In this document: in pieces, positions 10,217 to 21,822 of the stretch
Position numbering within the stretch: position 1 is the stretch's first letter
Layout: every line of letters begins with the position of its first letter
Assembly (NCBI GenBank): GCA_021783595.1
Contig: JAJXTS010000011.1
Span: 1 to 33,290, forward strand
Origin: Chloroflexota bacterium
Lineage (GTDB): Bacteria > Chloroflexota > Limnocylindria > Limnocylindrales > CSP1-4
DNA: 33,290 nucleotides
Direction of reading: 5' to 3'
The notes under the pieces: model-generated
What the model was told of the DNA's origin: nothing
The model's database searches: none
Seen by the model: only the letters and a program-made list of their open reading frames with translations
Translations under genes and position numbers: made by a program

Positions 10217-10366
10217 GGCGGGCAACGGTAGCGCGGAACGGGATGCCTCGGGTGGCGCCGGACCTGCTGCACTACCCTTCCGCCCAGCCCCGGGGGGACG
10301 CCGCAGCGCAACCCGGGCCACGCCGACCACCGCCCCCCAGCCCGAGCCCGCAGCCCGGAGGCCGCG

Positions 10367-11884
<1,518 letters not shown>

Positions 11885-15089: not shown

Positions 15090-17159
15090 TCAGCTGCCGG
15101 CGGCGAGGCTCGAGGCGGTCGCGGCCGAGGAGCAGTCGTAGACCGATGTGGCGGTGCCGTTCACGGTGACGGCGCTGCAGGCCGAGCCGACCCACGACGA
15201 GACGTCCGACGAAGTGCTGCCGCCGCCGGGCCCGGCACCCTGGCCGCCGAGCTCGATGAAGCGCAGCTGGCCGGATGCCACGTACGCTCGCAGCTGGGCC
15301 AGCGAGAGGGCGTTGTCGCTGCCGGTGAAGCCGCCCGTGGACATCACGGCTCGGCCGGTCGAGAGCTCGATCTGGCCCGCCGTGGTGGAGTCGGACACGG
15401 CCAGCAGCCACTTGGCCCCGCCCTGGTTCGCCTCCAGGTAGCCCACGACGTCCGACGACAGCGAGACGCCGCCGGGGCCGCCCATGCCGCCGCCGAACGA
15501 CCCGCCGGGGTCGCTCGCGACGCCGGCACCGGACGGGGCCGCGCTCGCCGGGCCGGATGCGGAGCCGGCGCCTGACGCAGCGCCTGCCGCGAACCCGCCC
15601 ACGAATGCCGTCTGGCCGCCGGAGCCTCCCGGGCCGCCGAAGCCGCCGTCGCGGCCCGCCGACGGGCCCGCCGCCGGATCGCCGCCGGAGTAGGCGGTCT
15701 GCATGGTGTCGATCGCGTAGGCCGCCGGCCCCGCGAGGAGCGCGGCGAGGCCGAGGCCCGCCGCCGCCAGTTGGAGCCGTCGCGTCCGCGCGGTCGCCCG
15801 CAGCGTGAGCACCGGCACTGTCAGGGAGGTCGCCGCCAGGACGACGAGCCCCAGCCCGGGCGCGAACGAGGGGGTGCGGTCGAGCAGCATCAGCGCCACG
15901 CCCGCGGAGCCGACCATCGCCAGCCCGAGCGCCAGGCCCGCCCACGGGTGTCGCTCCCGAGCCCTCCAGATCGCCACCACGCCACCGCCGACGAGCGCGC
16001 CGACCGCGGGGGCCATCGCCACGACGTAGTAGCTGTGGATGGTGCCCGACATGAGGCTGTAGACCGCGGCGTTGATTGCCAGCCACAGGCCCCACATCAG
16101 GAACGAGGCGCGGGCGAGGTCCGTTCTCGCCGCCCTGGCCCGGGCGACCAGGCCGGCCGCCAGGCCCACCACCGACAGCGGCAGGAACCAGCCGATCTGC
16201 CCGCCCAGCTCGGTGTTGAACAGACGCAGCAGTCCCGGCGTGCCCGAGAAGGTGCCGCCATTGCCCTGTCCGCCGCCGGCGGTGCCGCCGAGGACGCGGG
16301 CGAGGCCGTCGTAGCCGAGGACCAGGTTGAGCGCCGTGCCGTCCGACGATCCGCCGACGAAGGCGCGGGCCGACGCGGGCAGCAGCGTCATCGGGAGCAC
16401 CCACCACGCCGAGGCGACGGTCACCGATGCCGCCGCCACGACCAGCCCTGCGACGCGGCGCCGCCATGAGCCGCGCCCGGCCGCCGCGTAGGTGATCGCG
16501 AACGCCGGCAGGACCAGGTAACCCTGCAGGAGCTTGGTCTCGAACGCGAGACCGACCAGCGCCCCGGCCAGCGCGAGCCAGCGCAGCCGATCCGTCTCCA
16601 GCGCTCGGACGAGCGCGTAGGCGGCGCCGGCCCACAGCAGCGCGAGCAGGGCGTCGGGGTTGTTGTAGCGGAAGATCAGCACCGCGGCCGGTGTCAGCGC
16701 CGTCACCAGGCCCGCGATGATCGAGGCGGGCGCCCCGAGCGTCCGGCGGACGGTCGCCATCACCAGCGCCACCGCCGCGACGCCCATGAGCGCCTCGGGC
16801 AGGAGGATCGACGCGGGCGACAGGCCGAACAGGCGCACCGACAGGCCCATCACCATCGTGGCGAGGGGCGGCTTGTCCACCGTGATGAAGTTGGCCGGGT
16901 CGACCGAGCCCATGAACCAGGCCACCCAGGACTGGCTCGCGGCCCAGGCGGCGCCGCTGTAGAAGACGTTGGCGAAGCCGCTGACGGTGAGGTTCACGAG
17001 GTAGAGCACCGCGGCGAGGCCCATCACGCCGGCAGTTGCCGGCAGGACCCACGCCCCGTCGACGGCCCGGTCCCGGGCGACGAGGCGACGGAGGCTGCCC
17101 GCAACAGTCGGCGGGGCGCTGTGGCGGCGGCCCGCGCTGGGCGGGGCAATGGCGGTCAT
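15090..17159 (-). CDS. GT39/ArnT-like membrane glycosyltransferase (YkcB-like)
   Basis: A polytopic protein of 689 residues that should transfer a sugar from a polyprenyl-phosphate donor to an extracytoplasmic acceptor. After a short cytoplasmic head come many hydrophobic helices; the first loop contains FITVDKPPLATM, the D-K-P-P signature of ArnT/PMT-type enzymes, and LIFRYNNPDALLALLWAGAAYAL follows. Near residues 490-560 a Gly/Ala/Ser-rich linker leads to an extracytoplasmic C-terminal domain (LEANQGGAKWLLAVSDSTTAGQIELSTG...GGFTGSDNALSLAQLRAYV) typical of YkcB-like members. The ATG at 17159 is set by AGGAG 7 nt upstream, inside the end of gtrA; longer openings are unlikely. The start lies 4 nt after the gtrA stop, so the two are translationally coupled. 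Sugar and acceptor are unknown. Confidence 0.88.
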   Translation of the reverse strand: MTAIAPPSAGRRHSAPPTVAGSLRRLVARDRAVDGAWVLPATAGVMGLAAVLYLVNLTVSGFANVFYSGAAWAASQSWVAWFMGSVDPANFITVDKPPLATMVMGLSVRLFGLSPASILLPEALMGVAAVALVMATVRRTLGAPASIIAGLVTALTPAAVLIFRYNNPDALLALLWAGAAYALVRALETDRLRWLALAGALVGLAFETKLLQGYLVLPAFAITYAAAGRGSWRRRVAGLVVAAASVTVASAWWVLPMTLLPASARAFVGGSSDGTALNLVLGYDGLARVLGGTAGGGQGNGGTFSGTPGLLRLFNTELGGQIGWFLPLSVVGLAAGLVARARAARTDLARASFLMWGLWLAINAAVYSLMSGTIHSYYVVAMAPAVGALVGGGVVAIWRARERHPWAGLALGLAMVGSAGVALMLLDRTPSFAPGLGLVVLAATSLTVPVLTLRATARTRRLQLAAAGLGLAALLAGPAAYAIDTMQTAYSGGDPAAGPSAGRDGGFGGPGGSGGQTAFVGGFAAGAASGAGSASGPASAAPSGAGVASDPGGSFGGGMGGPGGVSLSSDVVGYLEANQGGAKWLLAVSDSTTAGQIELSTGRAVMSTGGFTGSDNALSLAQLRAYVASGQLRFIELGGQGAGPGGGSTSSDVSSWVGSACSAVTVNGTATSVYDCSSAATASSLAAGS

Positions 17160-17163
17160 GGCA

Positions 17164-17652
17164 TCACTCCTGGGGGTTGCGCATGGAGGAGACACGGACG
17201 AGCGCGCGTTCCCGGTCGGCGGCGATCCAGCTCCGGAGCAGGACGAACCGGGCGACGGTGGCGAGCGCATTGGCGGCGACGAGGACGGCCAGCTCCGCGA
17301 GGCGGCCGGCGCGCGGCGCGAGGGCGCCGAGCAGGCTGACGGACAGCGTCGTGACGGCGAGCGCGACCGCGAGGGCGATCAGGCCGCCGATCTGGTCGCG
17401 GACCATCGACCCGCCGCCCCGGACGCCGAACGTGAGGCGGCGGTTGGCCGCGGTGTTCGCGAGGGCGGTCAGGACCAGCGCGAGCGCGTTGGCCGCGGTC
17501 GCGCCGGTGGCGGTGCGGAGGAGCAGGTACAGCGCGGCGTAGGCCGCCGTGGACGCGATTCCGATCGCGCCGAACGCGAGGAGCTCCCGGCCGAGCCGGT
17601 GGCGGAGCAGGCGGCGGAGGGCGGCCGGGGCGGGCAGGCGGGCGGTGTCCAT
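17164..17652 (-). CDS. GtrA-family membrane protein (sugar-lipid flippase-like)
   Basis: A protein of 162 residues with four predicted membrane helices and the GtrA signature: ELLAFGAIGIASTAAYAALYLLL, ALANTAANRRLTFGVRG and a final NALATVARFVLLRSWI. GtrA proteins are thought to move polyprenyl-phosphate sugars across the membrane for glycosyltransferases. The next gene, 4 nt on, is such a transferase, which supports the pairing. A response-regulator-type direct repeat lies 24 bp upstream of the start, so expression is likely controlled by the two-component system encoded just upstream. Confidence 0.88.
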   Translation of the reverse strand: MDTARLPAPAALRRLLRHRLGRELLAFGAIGIASTAAYAALYLLLRTATGATAANALALVLTALANTAANRRLTFGVRGGGSMVRDQIGGLIALAVALAVTTLSVSLLGALAPRAGRLAELAVLVAANALATVARFVLLRSWIAADRERALVRVSSMRNPQE

Positions 17653-17675
17653 GCCCGGAGTCTCGGGCGTGGGCC

Positions 17676-17692
17676 CTTTCGAACCCGTTACG
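17676..17692 (-). promoter_or_regulatory. candidate response-regulator site upstream of gtrA-GT39
   Basis: On the minus strand it reads CGTAAC-GGGTT-CGAAAG, a direct repeat of CGWAAS with an 11-bp period, the geometry of OmpR/PhoB-family sites. Its 12 half-site bases are identical to those at 20381-20397. It ends 23 bp before the gtrA ATG; a GAGACT hexamer (17659-17664) between them could be the -10. Confidence 0.55.
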
Positions 17693-17706
17693 CGGCCGGC
17701 GGCCTG

Positions 17707-17740
17707 CCGGGCGCCGCCGGGGAGGCGGCGGGGCGCCCCG
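17707..17740 (-). terminator. imperfect GC hairpin after the histidine kinase gene
   Basis: GCCGCC (17713-17718) pairs with GGCGGC (17724-17729), with imperfect outer GC pairing on both sides. It begins 11 nt past the kinase stop codon and could end the ferric reductase-regulator-kinase transcript before the gtrA promoter. No T tract. Confidence 0.35.
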
Positions 17741-17750
17741 AGGACGCCTC

Positions 17751-19028
17751 CTAGCCGACGGAGGACCGACCCCAGCTCACCGCGAAGCGGGCGCCGCCCG
17801 AGGGCGACGAGCCCAGGCTCCAGCGCCCGTTGGTGGCCTGCACGATGGCATCGCCGATCGCGAGGCCCAGCCCCGCGCCGCCAGTGTCGGCCGCGGTCGT
17901 CACAGAGCGGTGGAAGCGGTTGAAGATCCGCTCACGCTCGTCGGGCGGGATGCCGGGACCCGAGTCGTCCACGGCCACGAAGGCGCGGCCCGCCTCCACG
18001 CCCACGGTCACGCCCACCGCCCCGCCCTCGGGCGAGTACTTGCAGGCGTTGTCCACCAGCACGCCCACCAGCCGGTCCACCAGCTCCGCGGACGCGGCGA
18101 TGACCACGGGCGAGGCGGTGGCCTGCACGGAGAGCCGCAGGTGCCGGGCCTCCGCGACGGCCGCGAACCGGTCCGCGGTCTGGCTCGCGAGCACCGCCAG
18201 GTCGATCGGGCCCGCCGGCGGCGGCTCGGCGGCGGCGTCGAAGCGGGCCAGCCAGAGCATGTCCTCCAGCAGCCGCCGCATCCGCTTGGATTCGCGCTCC
18301 ACCTTGGTGAACGCCGTGCGGTACCACGCGGCGTCGCGCTCCGTGGCCAGCGCCAGCGACGTGTGCGCCTCGATCACCGACAGCGGCGTGCGCAACTCGT
18401 GGGAGGCGTCCGCGGTGAACTCCAGCTGGCGGCGGCGAGCGGCCTCGATGGGCTGGGCCACGCGCTGCCCGACGATGGTGGCCCCCACGAACACGGCGCC
18501 CAGCAGGAACGGCGCGATCAGCAGGACGCCGAGCGCGATGGTCGCCTGCGTGTCGGCGACCTGCGATGTGTCCTGGGCGGCGATCACGTAGACCGATCCC
18601 ATCTGCTGGCCGGCGATCCGGACGCTGGTCCCGTCGATCGTGGCGTCCTGCGGCGACGAGACGGCCTTCAGGGCCGCCGGCAGGGCCGGGGTCTGGTTGC
18701 CGATGGGCGTCACCGTGCCGTCGGCGGCGACGGTCCAGATGAGGACGGGCGCGCCGAAGGGCCTGCCGGGGTCTCGCCCCAGGTTGAGCGAGCCGCCGCT
18801 CGCGCCGCCACCGTCACCGGCCCCGCTGCCGCCCGCGACCCCCCCGTCCGGCGCCAGGCGGGTGAACGTCTGCATGACCCGCTGGTCGATCTGAGCGGTC
18901 AGGTCCCGCGTCGCGAACGCGACGACGCCAGCCGAGATCGCGATGTAGGCGACGGCCACCACCCCCGTCGCGGCGAGCGCGACCCGGATGGACTGGCGGC
19001 GGACGGCCGGCACGTGGGTCATGGTCAT
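17751..19028 (-). CDS. two-component sensor histidine kinase
   Basis: A kinase of 425 residues. Membrane helices at about 15-39 and 162-186 enclose an extracytoplasmic sensor of about 120 residues with a Gly/Ser-rich stretch (61-80) and a small beta-rich part. The phosphoacceptor is H210 in the H box DASHELRTPLS, only about 20 residues after the second helix, so a full HAMP domain seems absent. The catalytic domain has N box VDNACKYS (326-332), G1 DDSGPGIPPDERERIFNRFHR (354-374) and G2 GGAGLGLAIG (383-392). Its ATG overlaps the TGA of the response regulator (ATGA at 19025-19028), so the pair is coupled. The signal is unknown; the operon mate upstream is a haem-binding redox membrane protein. 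Confidence 0.92.
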   Translation of the reverse strand: MTMTHVPAVRRQSIRVALAATGVVAVAYIAISAGVVAFATRDLTAQIDQRVMQTFTRLAPDGGVAGGSGAGDGGGASGGSLNLGRDPGRPFGAPVLIWTVAADGTVTPIGNQTPALPAALKAVSSPQDATIDGTSVRIAGQQMGSVYVIAAQDTSQVADTQATIALGVLLIAPFLLGAVFVGATIVGQRVAQPIEAARRRQLEFTADASHELRTPLSVIEAHTSLALATERDAAWYRTAFTKVERESKRMRRLLEDMLWLARFDAAAEPPPAGPIDLAVLASQTADRFAAVAEARHLRLSVQATASPVVIAASAELVDRLVGVLVDNACKYSPEGGAVGVTVGVEAGRAFVAVDDSGPGIPPDERERIFNRFHRSVTTAADTGGAGLGLAIGDAIVQATNGRWSLGSSPSGGARFAVSWGRSSVG

Positions 19029-19693
19029 CCGGCGTCGAGCCGGTAGCCGGAGCCGCGGACGGTGACGATCCGGACCCCGGCGTCGGGCAGCTTGGAGCGG
19101 AGGCGCGACATCTGCACGTCGATGGCGTTGGAGCCGAGCGGGTCCGTCTCGTCCGCCCAGGCGTGCTCGGCGATGGCCTTGCGATCCACGACCGCCGGCG
19201 CACGGCGGATGAGCAGCTCCAGGATCCGGTACTCGGTGGCGGTGAGCGCGATCTCGCGGCCGTTGGCGGTGACCACGTGCGAGACGGGGTCGAGAGCGAG
19301 CCGGCCGGCGCGGAGGATCGGCTGGTCCACGCCGCGCGGTCGGCGCTGGAGCGCGCGCACCCGGGCCAGCAGCTCGCCGAAGTCGAACGGCTTGACGAGG
19401 TAGTCGTCGGCCCCGGTGTCGAGGCCGCGGATGCGGTCGGCCGGGGCGTCGCGGGCGGTGAGCATCAGCAGGCCCGTCGGGCGCTCGTGCCGCCGGGCCC
19501 AGGCCACGACGTCGATGCCCTCGGCACCGGGCATCCGCCAGTCGATGATCGCGACGTCGTACTCGTACCACCTGAGCTGGTCGATGGCGTCGTCGCCGCG
19601 GTCCACGGCGTCCACGTGGTACCCCGCGTCCGTCAGGCCCAGGACCAGGACGTCCCGCAACCCCTCGTCGTCCTCGGCCACCAGCACGCGCAT
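19025..19693 (-). CDS. OmpR-family response regulator
   Basis: A protein of 222 residues. The receiver domain has the acidic pair E7/D8, phosphoacceptor D51 in AIIDWRMPG, T79 and K101 in VKPFDFGELLARVRAL. The C-terminal winged helix runs from about 125, with LTATEYRILELLIRRAP, the recognition helix region SNAIDVQMSRLRSKL and the final wing VRGSGYRL. It lies 27 nt after the ferric-reductase-like gene and overlaps the kinase start by 4 nt. The 11-bp-period direct repeats at 17676-17692 and 20381-20397 are the best candidates for its binding sites, implying control of its own operon and of gtrA-GT39. Confidence 0.95.
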   Translation of the reverse strand: MRVLVAEDDEGLRDVLVLGLTDAGYHVDAVDRGDDAIDQLRWYEYDVAIIDWRMPGAEGIDVVAWARRHERPTGLLMLTARDAPADRIRGLDTGADDYLVKPFDFGELLARVRALQRRPRGVDQPILRAGRLALDPVSHVVTANGREIALTATEYRILELLIRRAPAVVDRKAIAEHAWADETDPLGSNAIDVQMSRLRSKLPDAGVRIVTVRGSGYRLDAG

Positions 19694-19720
19694 CCCGACG
19701 ACTCCCTCACCGGTGCTCGC

Positions 19721-20281
19721 TCAGCGGGCCAGCGACTGCGGCCCGAGCGCCATGGTCGCACCCCGGTCGACCCAGCGCCACGTCGCGGCGCCGGCCACCA
19801 CCGCGAGCGCGGTCGCCTCGATGACCACCATCCAGGGCGCCATCGCGTCGCTGCCGGCGGTCACGGCATGGGCGAAGGCCAGTGGCCACATCAGGTAGCT
19901 GGCCCAGTGGACCGCGCGCCAGGCGTGCTGGCCGAGATGCCGCCGCAGGAGGCTGGTGGCGATCAGCGCCACGAACAGGTAGAGCGCGATCACGCCCAGC
20001 GCGACCGGGACGGGGCGCCAGGACGAGGCGAGCGGCACGAGCGCGGCGCTCAGCCCCAGGCGGAGGTAGGGGTCCAGGATCGCGGCGAGGACGTGCGTCG
20101 TGAGGAAGGCCACTGCCAGGAGCGACACCCGCCGGTGCAGCTCGTAGTTGAAGAACCGGGGCCAGCCGGCGGCCTGGAACCGGGTGACGGTGACCAGGCC
20201 GAGCGCGGCGCTCGCGGTGAGCATCAGCAGCGAGACGATGCCCGCGCCGCGGGCCGCGAACCACAGGATCTGCTCTGACAT
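19721..20281 (-). CDS. ferric-reductase-like haem transmembrane protein (MsrQ/FRE-like)
   Basis: A protein of 186 residues with five to six hydrophobic segments (about 5-30, 51-69, 90-111, 122-141, 150-168). Histidines lie where ferric-reductase-like domains ligate haem: H49 and H63 in the second helix region, H125 in HWASYLMW and H138 in FAHAVTAGSD. It lacks any FAD/NAD-binding domain, so electrons must come from or go to a partner. An ApbE flavin transferase gene lies 174 bp upstream in the same direction, suggesting that a flavinylated protein is that partner. GAGGAG lies 8 nt before the ATG. It appears to head the operon with the response regulator and the kinase. Confidence 0.85.
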   Translation of the reverse strand: MSEQILWFAARGAGIVSLLMLTASAALGLVTVTRFQAAGWPRFFNYELHRRVSLLAVAFLTTHVLAAILDPYLRLGLSAALVPLASSWRPVPVALGVIALYLFVALIATSLLRRHLGQHAWRAVHWASYLMWPLAFAHAVTAGSDAMAPWMVVIEATALAVVAGAATWRWVDRGATMALGPQSLAR

Positions 20282-20380
20282 CGGGGGCGCTCCTCGGGGG
20301 GGTGACGGCGGCGGGGCCGAGGGGGGAGATGCCCCGCCGCCGCGGTTTGTGCTCGGTGGCGCGAGTGTCGCGCCCGGACT

Positions 20381-20397
20381 CTTTCGTCGCGGTTACG
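20381..20397 (-). promoter_or_regulatory. candidate response-regulator site upstream of the ferric-reductase operon
   Basis: On the minus strand it reads CGTAAC-CGCGA-CGAAAG. Both half-sites are identical to those at 17676-17692 while the 5-bp centre differs, as expected for an OmpR-type direct repeat. It lies 100 bp upstream of the ferric-reductase ATG. Confidence 0.55.
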
Positions 20398-20436
20398 GGT
20401 CCCGGGCCGCGACTGCGCTGACCAGGCGCGGCGCCG

Positions 20437-20464
20437 CCCGTCAGGCGCGGCCCGTCAGGCGCGG
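20437..20464. repeat. 14-bp perfect tandem duplication over the apbE stop codon
   Basis: CCCGTCAGGCGCGG occurs twice without a gap (20437-20450 and 20451-20464). The second copy contains the apbE stop codon (TCA at 20455-20457 on the plus strand), so the duplication rebuilt the end of the gene. A partial third match lies just upstream (20423-20433). Confidence 0.8.
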
Positions 20465-21408
20465 CCCGCCGTGTCCGCGGCGGCGGCGGCGGCCGGCTCG
20501 GGCCAGCCGCCGACCCGGACCACGGACCCGTCCTGGGCCACGAGCCGCGCGGGCAGCCGCGCCGACGCCAGCCAGTCCACGGCGGCGTGGCCCAGGACGA
20601 TGCAGGCGGTGGAGGCGGCGTTGGCCGCCTCGCAGGTGTCGGCGACCACGGTCGCGGTCCGCCACGGCGTCTCGGCGGGCAGGCCAGTCCGCGGGTCCAC
20701 GATGTGGTGCGCGGTGGCCCCCGTGTCCGCCGCCCAGCGCCGGACGGTGGTGGACGAGGTGGCCAGCCCGCCCCGCTCGATCGCGACCACCTCGCCCGGC
20801 CCGTCGGGATCGGCGCGGCTGTCCTCGGCCATCAGGATCCGCCAGCCGCCCTCGGGTGGGCGCCCGAGGACCGCCACGTCGCCGCCGAGGCTCACGAGCA
20901 CTCCGGCACCGGGCCCGGCGGCGGCGAGCGCCGCGACGGCGCACAGGTCCGAGGCGAGGCCCTTGCCCGTGGCGCCCAGGTCGAGCTCCACGTCGGTCGG
21001 TACGCGGACCGTGCCGGTCCGCTCGTCGAGATGGATCACCGACCAGCCCGGGACCGGCGCCAGCCGGAGTTGCAGGGGGCGCGTGGTGCCCGCGATGCGG
21101 TCGAAATCGTCGTCGTAGCCGGCGATCCGGAGGGCGCGGCCGATGGTGGGGTCAACGGCCCCGCCGGTCGCGCGCGCCGCCTCCAGCGACCCGGCCAGGG
21201 CGCGGGCGAGCAGCGCCGACACGCGGACCTGCTTGCCGCGCGCGGAGTTGAGGCCGACCAGCTCCGAGTCGGCACGGAACCGCGAGTAGGCGCGGTCCAC
21301 CTCGGCGAGGACCAGCTCGGCTGCGGCTCGCGCGGCATCCAGGTCGCCGTCGCTCACGACCAGGCGAGCGCGGGCGCCGAGCGCCTGCCAGTCAGCCGTG
21401 CCGAGCAC
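20455..21408 (-). CDS. apbE: FAD:protein FMN transferase (ApbE family)
   Basis: A protein of 317 residues that covalently attaches FMN from FAD to Ser/Thr of target proteins. Visible motifs: VLGTADW at the start (the family's MGT), DRAYSRFRADSELVGLNSARG (38-58), VDPTIGRAL (85-93), DLGATGKGLASD (143-154, the K/G flavin-binding loop), LVSLGGDVAVLG and GLATSSTTVRRW, then AHHIVDPRTGLP (233-244). In the Mg site, VVADTCEAANAASTA has Asn where classical members have Asp. No signal peptide is seen, unlike the lipoprotein ApbEs of Gram-negatives. The GTG at 21408 starts 2 nt after the stop of the preceding small gene, so the two form an operon. No FMN-binding-domain substrate is in the window. Confidence 0.88.
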   Translation of the reverse strand: MLGTADWQALGARARLVVSDGDLDAARAAAELVLAEVDRAYSRFRADSELVGLNSARGKQVRVSALLARALAGSLEAARATGGAVDPTIGRALRIAGYDDDFDRIAGTTRPLQLRLAPVPGWSVIHLDERTGTVRVPTDVELDLGATGKGLASDLCAVAALAAAGPGAGVLVSLGGDVAVLGRPPEGGWRILMAEDSRADPDGPGEVVAIERGGLATSSTTVRRWAADTGATAHHIVDPRTGLPAETPWRTATVVADTCEAANAASTACIVLGHAAVDWLASARLPARLVAQDGSVVRVGGWPEPAAAAAADTAGRA

Positions 21409-21410
21409 GA

Positions 21411-21689
21411 TCAGGAGCCCCCGGACGAGACGTGCGCGAAGCCCGTGGAGGCGCCCACGGACGGGGCCAGGCTGAAGAGGCCCGCCGCGGCGGACGAGGT
21501 CGAGGCGGTGGTGGCGCCTGCCGCGGACACCGCGGCGGCCGATGTGGTGGTGCCGGCGTAGGTCACCGCCGCGAGGTACGTGAAGCCGGTCGTGGCGGCC
21601 ACGCCGATCGCCGCGGTCCCGATGGTCAGCCTGCGGAGCCGGGCGAGGTTCCGGGACCGATCCTCGCGGGCCTTGTCGATTGCGTTCAT
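21411..21689 (-). CDS. small single-pass membrane protein upstream of apbE
   Basis: A protein of 92 residues. A basic N terminus (MNAIDKAREDRSRNLARLRR) precedes one membrane helix (about 21-45), so the C-terminal half should be outside. That half is made almost only of Ala, Ser, Thr and Gly and ends FAHVSSGGS. No known domain. Its stop lies 2 nt from the apbE start, so it is co-transcribed and probably coupled. Its tail contains AGATT, close to but not the same as the [S/T]GAT flavin-acceptor motif, so it could be an unusual ApbE substrate or an adaptor for the haem protein. No clear Shine-Dalgarno precedes ATG 21689. Confidence 0.65.
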   Translation of the reverse strand: MNAIDKAREDRSRNLARLRRLTIGTAAIGVAATTGFTYLAAVTYAGTTTSAAAVSAAGATTASTSSAAAGLFSLAPSVGASTGFAHVSSGGS

Positions 21690-21703: not shown

Positions 21704-21720
21704 GGCGCAACCCTTGCGCC
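21704..21720. promoter_or_regulatory. inverted repeat in the promoter region of the apbE operon
   Basis: GGCGCAA (21704-21710) and TTGCGCC (21714-21720) form a perfect inverted repeat over CCC, 15 bp upstream of the start of the small membrane protein gene. It could be an operator; it does not match the CGWAAS repeats seen in the neighbouring operons. Confidence 0.35.
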
Positions 21721-21822
21721 TTGATGACAGCCGGAATGAGACTTCGCCCATGTTCGGGCCCCGGCCCGTGGCGGGCGGGATGGGTCCGGGCGGCACGAGC
21801 CGCCGCACCCGGGCGGCCGATC

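Follow-up and report, generated by a model that had tools for sequence, protein, structure and literature searches.

ApbE, an FAD:protein FMN transferase, places FMN on the last Ser or Thr of an [S/T]GA[S/T] motif (PMC8238504; PMC12052999). Its known substrates, i.e., FMN_bind, NqrB/RnfD, DUF2271, DUF3570, Flavodoxin_4 and FMN reductase (PMC8238504; PMC11334425), carry the Ser/Thr target in a motif of this kind and are encoded near apbE, and orphan apbE genes are still present in 670 genomes (4%) after the addition of DUF2271 and DUF3570 (PMC8238504). The so-called MsrQ-like flavinylation clusters, described mainly in Actinobacteria, combine ApbE with a PF01794 haem protein, sometimes with a NuoF-like NADH subunit, and possess an FMN-binding-domain protein as acceptor (Meheust et al. 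2021, PMC8238504). It has furthermore been demonstrated, with an engineered 7-residue flavin tag of the DxxSGAT type, that a short terminal motif suffices for ApbE, and that such a tag performs best at the end of a protein (PMC12052999). As regards glycosyl transfer, the available portions of a study on Bacillus subtilis (PMC7961091) describe the YclJK regulon, which comprises ykcBC and yngABC and in which one two-component system governs a YkcB-type transferase and a GtrA protein; YclJ activates the genes of a proposed YkcC-YngA-YkcB pathway and the regulon rises at low oxygen, and those portions describe no ApbE/haem module.

The window, i.e., the whole stretch of 33,290 nucleotides that was analysed, is contig C25 of a 258-contig, 2.6 Mb assembly (genome G000) from a soil bacterium. 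A row of seven minus-strand genes had been proposed for it in an initial annotation, and both coordinates and order were found to agree, from 21689 down to 15090. These genes and their associated operators are as follows:

21712..21728, minus strand: operator GTCATCAAGGCGCAAGG, before the tail gene
21411..21689, minus strand: tail protein, 92 aa, with a basic N-terminus, one membrane helix, a Ser/Thr-rich tail and C-terminal SSGGS; proposed FMN acceptor (Ser92); no Pfam or NCBIfam match in family searches
20455..21408, minus strand: ApbE, FAD:protein FMN transferase, without signal peptide (PF02424, E 4e-50)
20380..20396, minus strand: operator GTAACCGCGACGAAAGA, before the haem-protein gene (unit of haem protein, response regulator and kinase)
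19721..20281, minus strand: MsrQ/ferric-reductase-like membrane haem protein (PF01794, E 2e-8)
19025..19693, minus strand: OmpR-family response regulator (PF00072 and PF00486)
17751..19028, minus strand: membrane histidine kinase with a small extracytoplasmic domain (PF00512 and PF02518), of a family kept in relatives
17675..17691, minus strand: operator GTAACGGGTTCGAAAGG, before GtrA (GtrA-GT39 unit)
17164..17652, minus strand: GtrA-type membrane protein, proposed lipid-linked sugar flippase (PF04138, E 2e-9)
15090..17159, minus strand: GT39/GT-C transferase (PMT_2) with a YkcB-like C-terminal domain, YkcB_C (PF13231, E 4e-29; PF24878, E 1e-26)

The tail gene and apbE overlap, at the stop of the former and the GTG start of the latter, as do the genes for the regulator and the kinase. 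The complete seven-gene order was found again in three relatives (L038/L058, L040/L056 and L041/L060), while other relatives carry the subsets tail-ApbE-haem or tail-ApbE-haem-regulator-kinase; the named near relatives are uncultured Chloroflexi metagenome-assembled genomes (MAGs).

As in MsrQ-like clusters, a PF01794 membrane haem protein adjoins apbE, and this pairing is conserved. The window ApbE is similar to ApbE enzymes of solved structure (E-values as low as 3e-41) and keeps the GGD, ATSG-like and HHIxDPxTG regions, such that both the ApbE fold and the catalytic motifs are present. Four His residues of the haem protein (49, 63, 125 and 138) are invariant in the alignment and are read, as expected from knowledge of the family (PMC8238504), as two b-haem sites; the model of this protein is all-helical (pLDDT 74), and a fold search of the model against the PDB was uninformative (best match E 0.79). 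In most related loci the next gene after that of the haem protein is NuoF-like (Complex1_51K and NADH_4Fe-4S), followed in some Dormibacteria by a ferredoxin gene (Fer4_15). A NAD-binding or NuoF-like donor is absent from the window cluster, yet present in most relatives and on contig C44 of the same genome, where a second locus (L146 5374-7736; L217, L218) comprises a haem protein, NuoF and a tail protein ending SHAVSGGS. The ApbE search found no ApbE on contig C44, whose tail protein may be served by the ApbE of the window.

The initial annotation held that the usual FMN-binding-domain acceptor is missing, and an FMN_bind (PF04205) protein is indeed absent from the window cluster. The sole FMN_bind gene of the genome lies on contig C19 (G000:C19) and adjoins a separate ApbE of its own, for which reason it was rejected as a hidden acceptor. 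In a search of 201 Chloroflexota genomes, the haem protein was found in 88 and an FMN_bind domain in 46; 68 of the 88 are without any FMN_bind, and a comparison of the match lists by hand across the 201 genomes returned no FMN_bind within 28 kb of a haem-protein match. That an acceptor as such is lacking, however, is not supported, the small protein encoded upstream of ApbE being the likely one.

This 92-residue tail protein is probably the ApbE acceptor in the window, with Ser92 as the putative FMN site. It ends FAHVSSGGS, and its AlphaFold model consists of one helix (residues 3-44), with the remainder unstructured and of low confidence. Close relatives align chiefly over the N-terminus and helix and over the last residues, and the terminal G-G-S shows no variation among eight homologues. 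Proteins of this type recur upstream of related apbE genes (44 loci) and at haem-protein loci, the latter sampled evenly over the phylum Chloroflexota, and their ends include TSGGS, TTGGS, VSGGS, TTGGSR, SGVS, SGTS and SGSS. The window protein thus carries SGGS, while exact SGAS or TGAS, i.e., the canonical [S/T]GA[S/T] substrate motif, occurs in only a few relatives (VATGAS in L158, GSGAS in L173, SSGAS in L182 and VTGASR in L082). Relatives next to an ApbE/haem-protein pair of this kind retain a C-terminal [ST]G[AGSVTL]S, a relaxed form of the ApbE target. The assignment as acceptor is supported by the finding that a flavin tag works best at the end of a protein (PMC12052999). It is weakened by the window motif being SGGS rather than SGAS, and by the absence of the Asp that starts the classical motif; GGS for GAS and the loss of Asp were each only partly tolerated in published mutants of other proteins (PMC12052999).

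To control for bias, open reading frames (ORFs) were chosen without reference to the motif: each had to lie immediately upstream of ApbE and to possess a single hydrophobic stretch together with a tail of low complexity. Of 76 distinct tail-like proteins selected in this way from Chloroflexota, 54 have [ST]G[AGSVTL][ST] at their end (followed by one more residue in two of the 54), as against 1.2 expected, and in Actinomycetes 16 of 20 end in this motif or in [ST]xGS, with 0.7 expected for each; the expected counts are the motif frequencies in the interiors of the same tails, and both sets, having been drawn from loci similar in ApbE or haem protein, consist of related sequences and not of independent trials. 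Approximately 30% of the Chloroflexota upstream tail-like proteins do not fit the motif. An earlier count, in which the motif was required, gave 3 of 1281 background membrane-type ORFs. On the comparison with tail interiors, the C-terminal motif as a chance product of low complexity was rejected.

Several additional proteins were observed at or near such loci. Upstream one-helix proteins with other conserved C-termini are encoded at G000:C38 (L053 2976-3626) and G000:C198 (L054 7830-8630) as well as in L047, L048, L051, L052 and L199; at these other ApbE/haem-protein loci the ends are TRQSGKP, TRQSGRP, TTASGKP and SQSGAKP, and one-helix proteins ending in this manner perhaps represent a further, second type of tail acceptor. 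In L060 (the same as L041), an additional and longer tail protein, which ends ASTGGS and has its own operator, is encoded at 10258-10689, between the kinase and GtrA genes, and L079 possesses two tail genes in tandem. The GT39 proteins also end in Ser/Ala-rich tails that resemble the tail motif (SSLAAGS at 15090-15110 of the window, SSAAGGS in L058), a likeness that may be due to chance.

The N-termini of 65 tail proteins contain 365 Lys/Arg versus 135 Asp/Glu residues, and their tails are nearly uncharged and 41% Ser plus Thr; on the basis of the basic N-termini and nearly uncharged tails, the positive-inside rule predicts an N-in/C-out orientation and, therefore, a tail outside. Twin-arginine export of the tail protein was considered and rejected, as the Arg-Arg pair is not conserved among homologues. 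An export signal or lipoprotein anchor is usual for ApbE, although cytosolic ApbEs are known. Neither was found on the ApbEs of these loci, at nearly all of which the domain begins no more than approximately 20 residues after the preceding stop, and this represents a real difficulty for a tail located outside: either the FMN is added prior to translocation of the tail, or the tail remains on the cytosolic side. The first possibility is favoured, while the second is the main rival and holds that the tail is flavinylated but cytosolic, its FMN acting as the entry port from NuoF or ferredoxin to the inner haem, with the outer acceptor meeting the haem protein directly. The absence of a signal peptide from ApbE across the whole family and the cytosolic character of the NuoF-like and ferredoxin partners are in line with such an arrangement, yet the charge distribution given above predicts the opposite orientation, and a cytosolic tail is considered unlikely.

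It could also be argued that the small protein merely supports the haem protein structurally and that its end is kept for another reason, say, for binding to the haem protein or as a glycosylation site, the ApbE target being some other protein. The GT39 enzyme could O-glycosylate Ser/Thr-rich tails, and the N-terminal helix region of the tail protein is conserved too; yet most tail-protein loci have no GT39 gene nearby, the motif lies at the very end of the protein and, in some members, agrees exactly with the ApbE target motif, and no other candidate ApbE target was found in the tail/ApbE/haem loci. A purely structural role is accordingly regarded as distinctly unlikely, and the tail protein is retained as the putative FMN acceptor.

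The initial annotation also proposed shared operators, and this proposal was confirmed: the 17-bp consensus GTMAYSNNNNCGMAAGR has five matches in the 2.6 Mb assembly, three of which lie within this 6.6 kb, while the reversed control pattern has no match in the whole assembly. No clear target gene was identified for the remaining two matches (G000:C3:24713-24729 and G000:C185:270-286). The consensus is composed of two half-sites approximately 11 bp apart, a spacing often used by OmpR-type regulators. A looser scan of the window alone, allowing two mismatches, gave a number of matches not above chance; both were exact and located in the two intergenic regions. Across the genus, 44 sites versus 8 for the control were counted in twelve genomes, and 484 kb of related loci contain 49 versus 2, mostly just before tail genes or a kinase-tail-ApbE run; as the pattern was derived from some of the sites counted, the counts there are not independent, and the control together with the positions in loci not used for the derivation forms the stronger part. 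A chance origin of the operator is rejected by these genome-wide and cross-species counts. Sites were also found before regulator-kinase genes (L247, L250) and before GtrA-GT39 genes (L248, L251, L252) on contigs that lack the redox genes or carry only some of them. Owing to this co-occurrence, and to the 72-99% identity of the response regulator in linked relatives, we infer that the linked regulator binds the operator. The kinase was suggested in the initial annotation perhaps to read a redox state; its extracytoplasmic domain is conserved in relatives and contains no conserved Cys or His, such that redox sensing through residues of this kind was discarded. Small secreted-looking ORFs ending AREAQENAGQFPTVP, without Pfam match, adjoin these genes in L065 (5309-5695), L082 and L083, the one in L065 just downstream of an operator, and are a possible further regulon member.

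The YkcB-like GT-C enzyme (PF13231 and PF24878) and the GtrA protein (PF04138) are present in one unit, a combination matching the YkcC-YngA-YkcB pathway proposed for B. subtilis (PMC7961091). The GT2 (YkcC) gene of that system, whose product would charge the lipid carrier, is missing from the seven window genes, yet present in the Dormibacteraeota MAG L094, where GT2-GtrA-GT39 adjoins tail-ApbE-haem-NuoF-regulator and each unit has its own operator. Gene-neighbourhood analysis indicates that GT39 is absent nearby in most Chloroflexota loci and in all tested Actinomycetes loci; it is linked to tail/ApbE/haem genes only in this genus, in L094 and, more weakly, in L162, L163, L178 and L179, which we take to be Ktedonobacteria-like. 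The suggestion that the redox and glycosylation halves answer one signal is supported in part, as far as the shared operator is concerned, which extends beyond the genus to L094, whereas the physical linkage of GtrA/GT39 is lineage-limited. Co-regulation of the redox and glycosyl-transfer modules is well supported by the operator sequences, and the two modules share one operator and probably one two-component system. That the glycosylation genes are mere chance neighbours, the two halves having separate roles and signals, would fit the restricted linkage but is most improbable, since several genomes, L094 among them, carry the same operator before each of the two modules, even where these lie on different contigs.

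Computation thus yields the gene content, a C-terminal motif conserved in the proteins encoded beside ApbE, the absence of FMN_bind nearby and the conservation of the operator, and the interpretation of the whole as a two-component-controlled envelope redox regulon with an FMN-tagged tail acceptor is considered reasonably likely. ApbE would take FMN from FAD and attach it to Ser92, the final residue of the tail protein. The latter would be anchored by its single N-terminal helix, and its flexible tether, rich in Ser and Thr, would most likely lie outside the membrane. Electrons would cross the membrane through the MsrQ-like protein, in the presumed outward direction and via two b haems, to reach the tethered flavin, which would in turn give them to a putative acceptor outside. 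The cytosolic donor in most relatives is likely the NuoF-like NADH-oxidising subunit encoded next to the haem protein, for which the window genome has a matching gene elsewhere (C44). In response to a presumed signal, the response regulator, acting on the 17-bp operators, would activate the tail-ApbE pair, the haem-protein and regulator genes, and the GtrA/YkcB-type unit with its presumed sugar target.

The locus thus resembles an electron conduit of the MsrQ-like kind whose acceptor would represent a new, minimal class, with FMN borne by the terminal residue of a flexible tether. A one-helix tail protein with a target-like end would take the place of the FMN-binding-domain acceptor of the MsrQ-like clusters; the known ApbE substrates listed above are folded domains, whereas the site proposed here is the very C-terminus of a disordered tail, and in contrast to the engineered tag its motif is natural, shorter, degenerate and without Asp. 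With flavinylation as predicted, the locus would work like an MsrQ-like flavinylated electron carrier, yet it lacks the usual FMN_bind protein. The strongest new point is this candidate minimal C-terminal-motif class of ApbE acceptors, found in two phyla. The literature searched, outside which lie preprints and most subscription papers, contains no description of tail-type ApbE substrates or of ApbE with GtrA. According to a broader proposal, one-helix membrane proteins of this type form a class of ApbE substrates that is both undescribed and widespread among Chloroflexota and Actinomycetota; a cytosolic ApbE would load FMN onto the terminal residue of their disordered tether, and they would be exported thereafter and serve as a swinging one-cofactor electron arm for MsrQ-like haem proteins. 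This proposal is viewed as evenly balanced.

The existence of apbE genes for which no target can be recognised is an acknowledged gap, and the tail proteins offer a simple answer to it at many actinomycete and Chloroflexota loci; if real, the C-terminal tail class would explain numerous orphan apbE genes and would, in some lineages, be co-regulated with cell-surface glycosylation. A covalent flavin acting as electron carrier would then require no folded domain, which would change the way in which acceptors are searched for, and the tail proteins would represent natural templates for flavin tags. Furthermore, the shared operator points to a concrete regulon that would switch envelope redox and surface glycosylation together.
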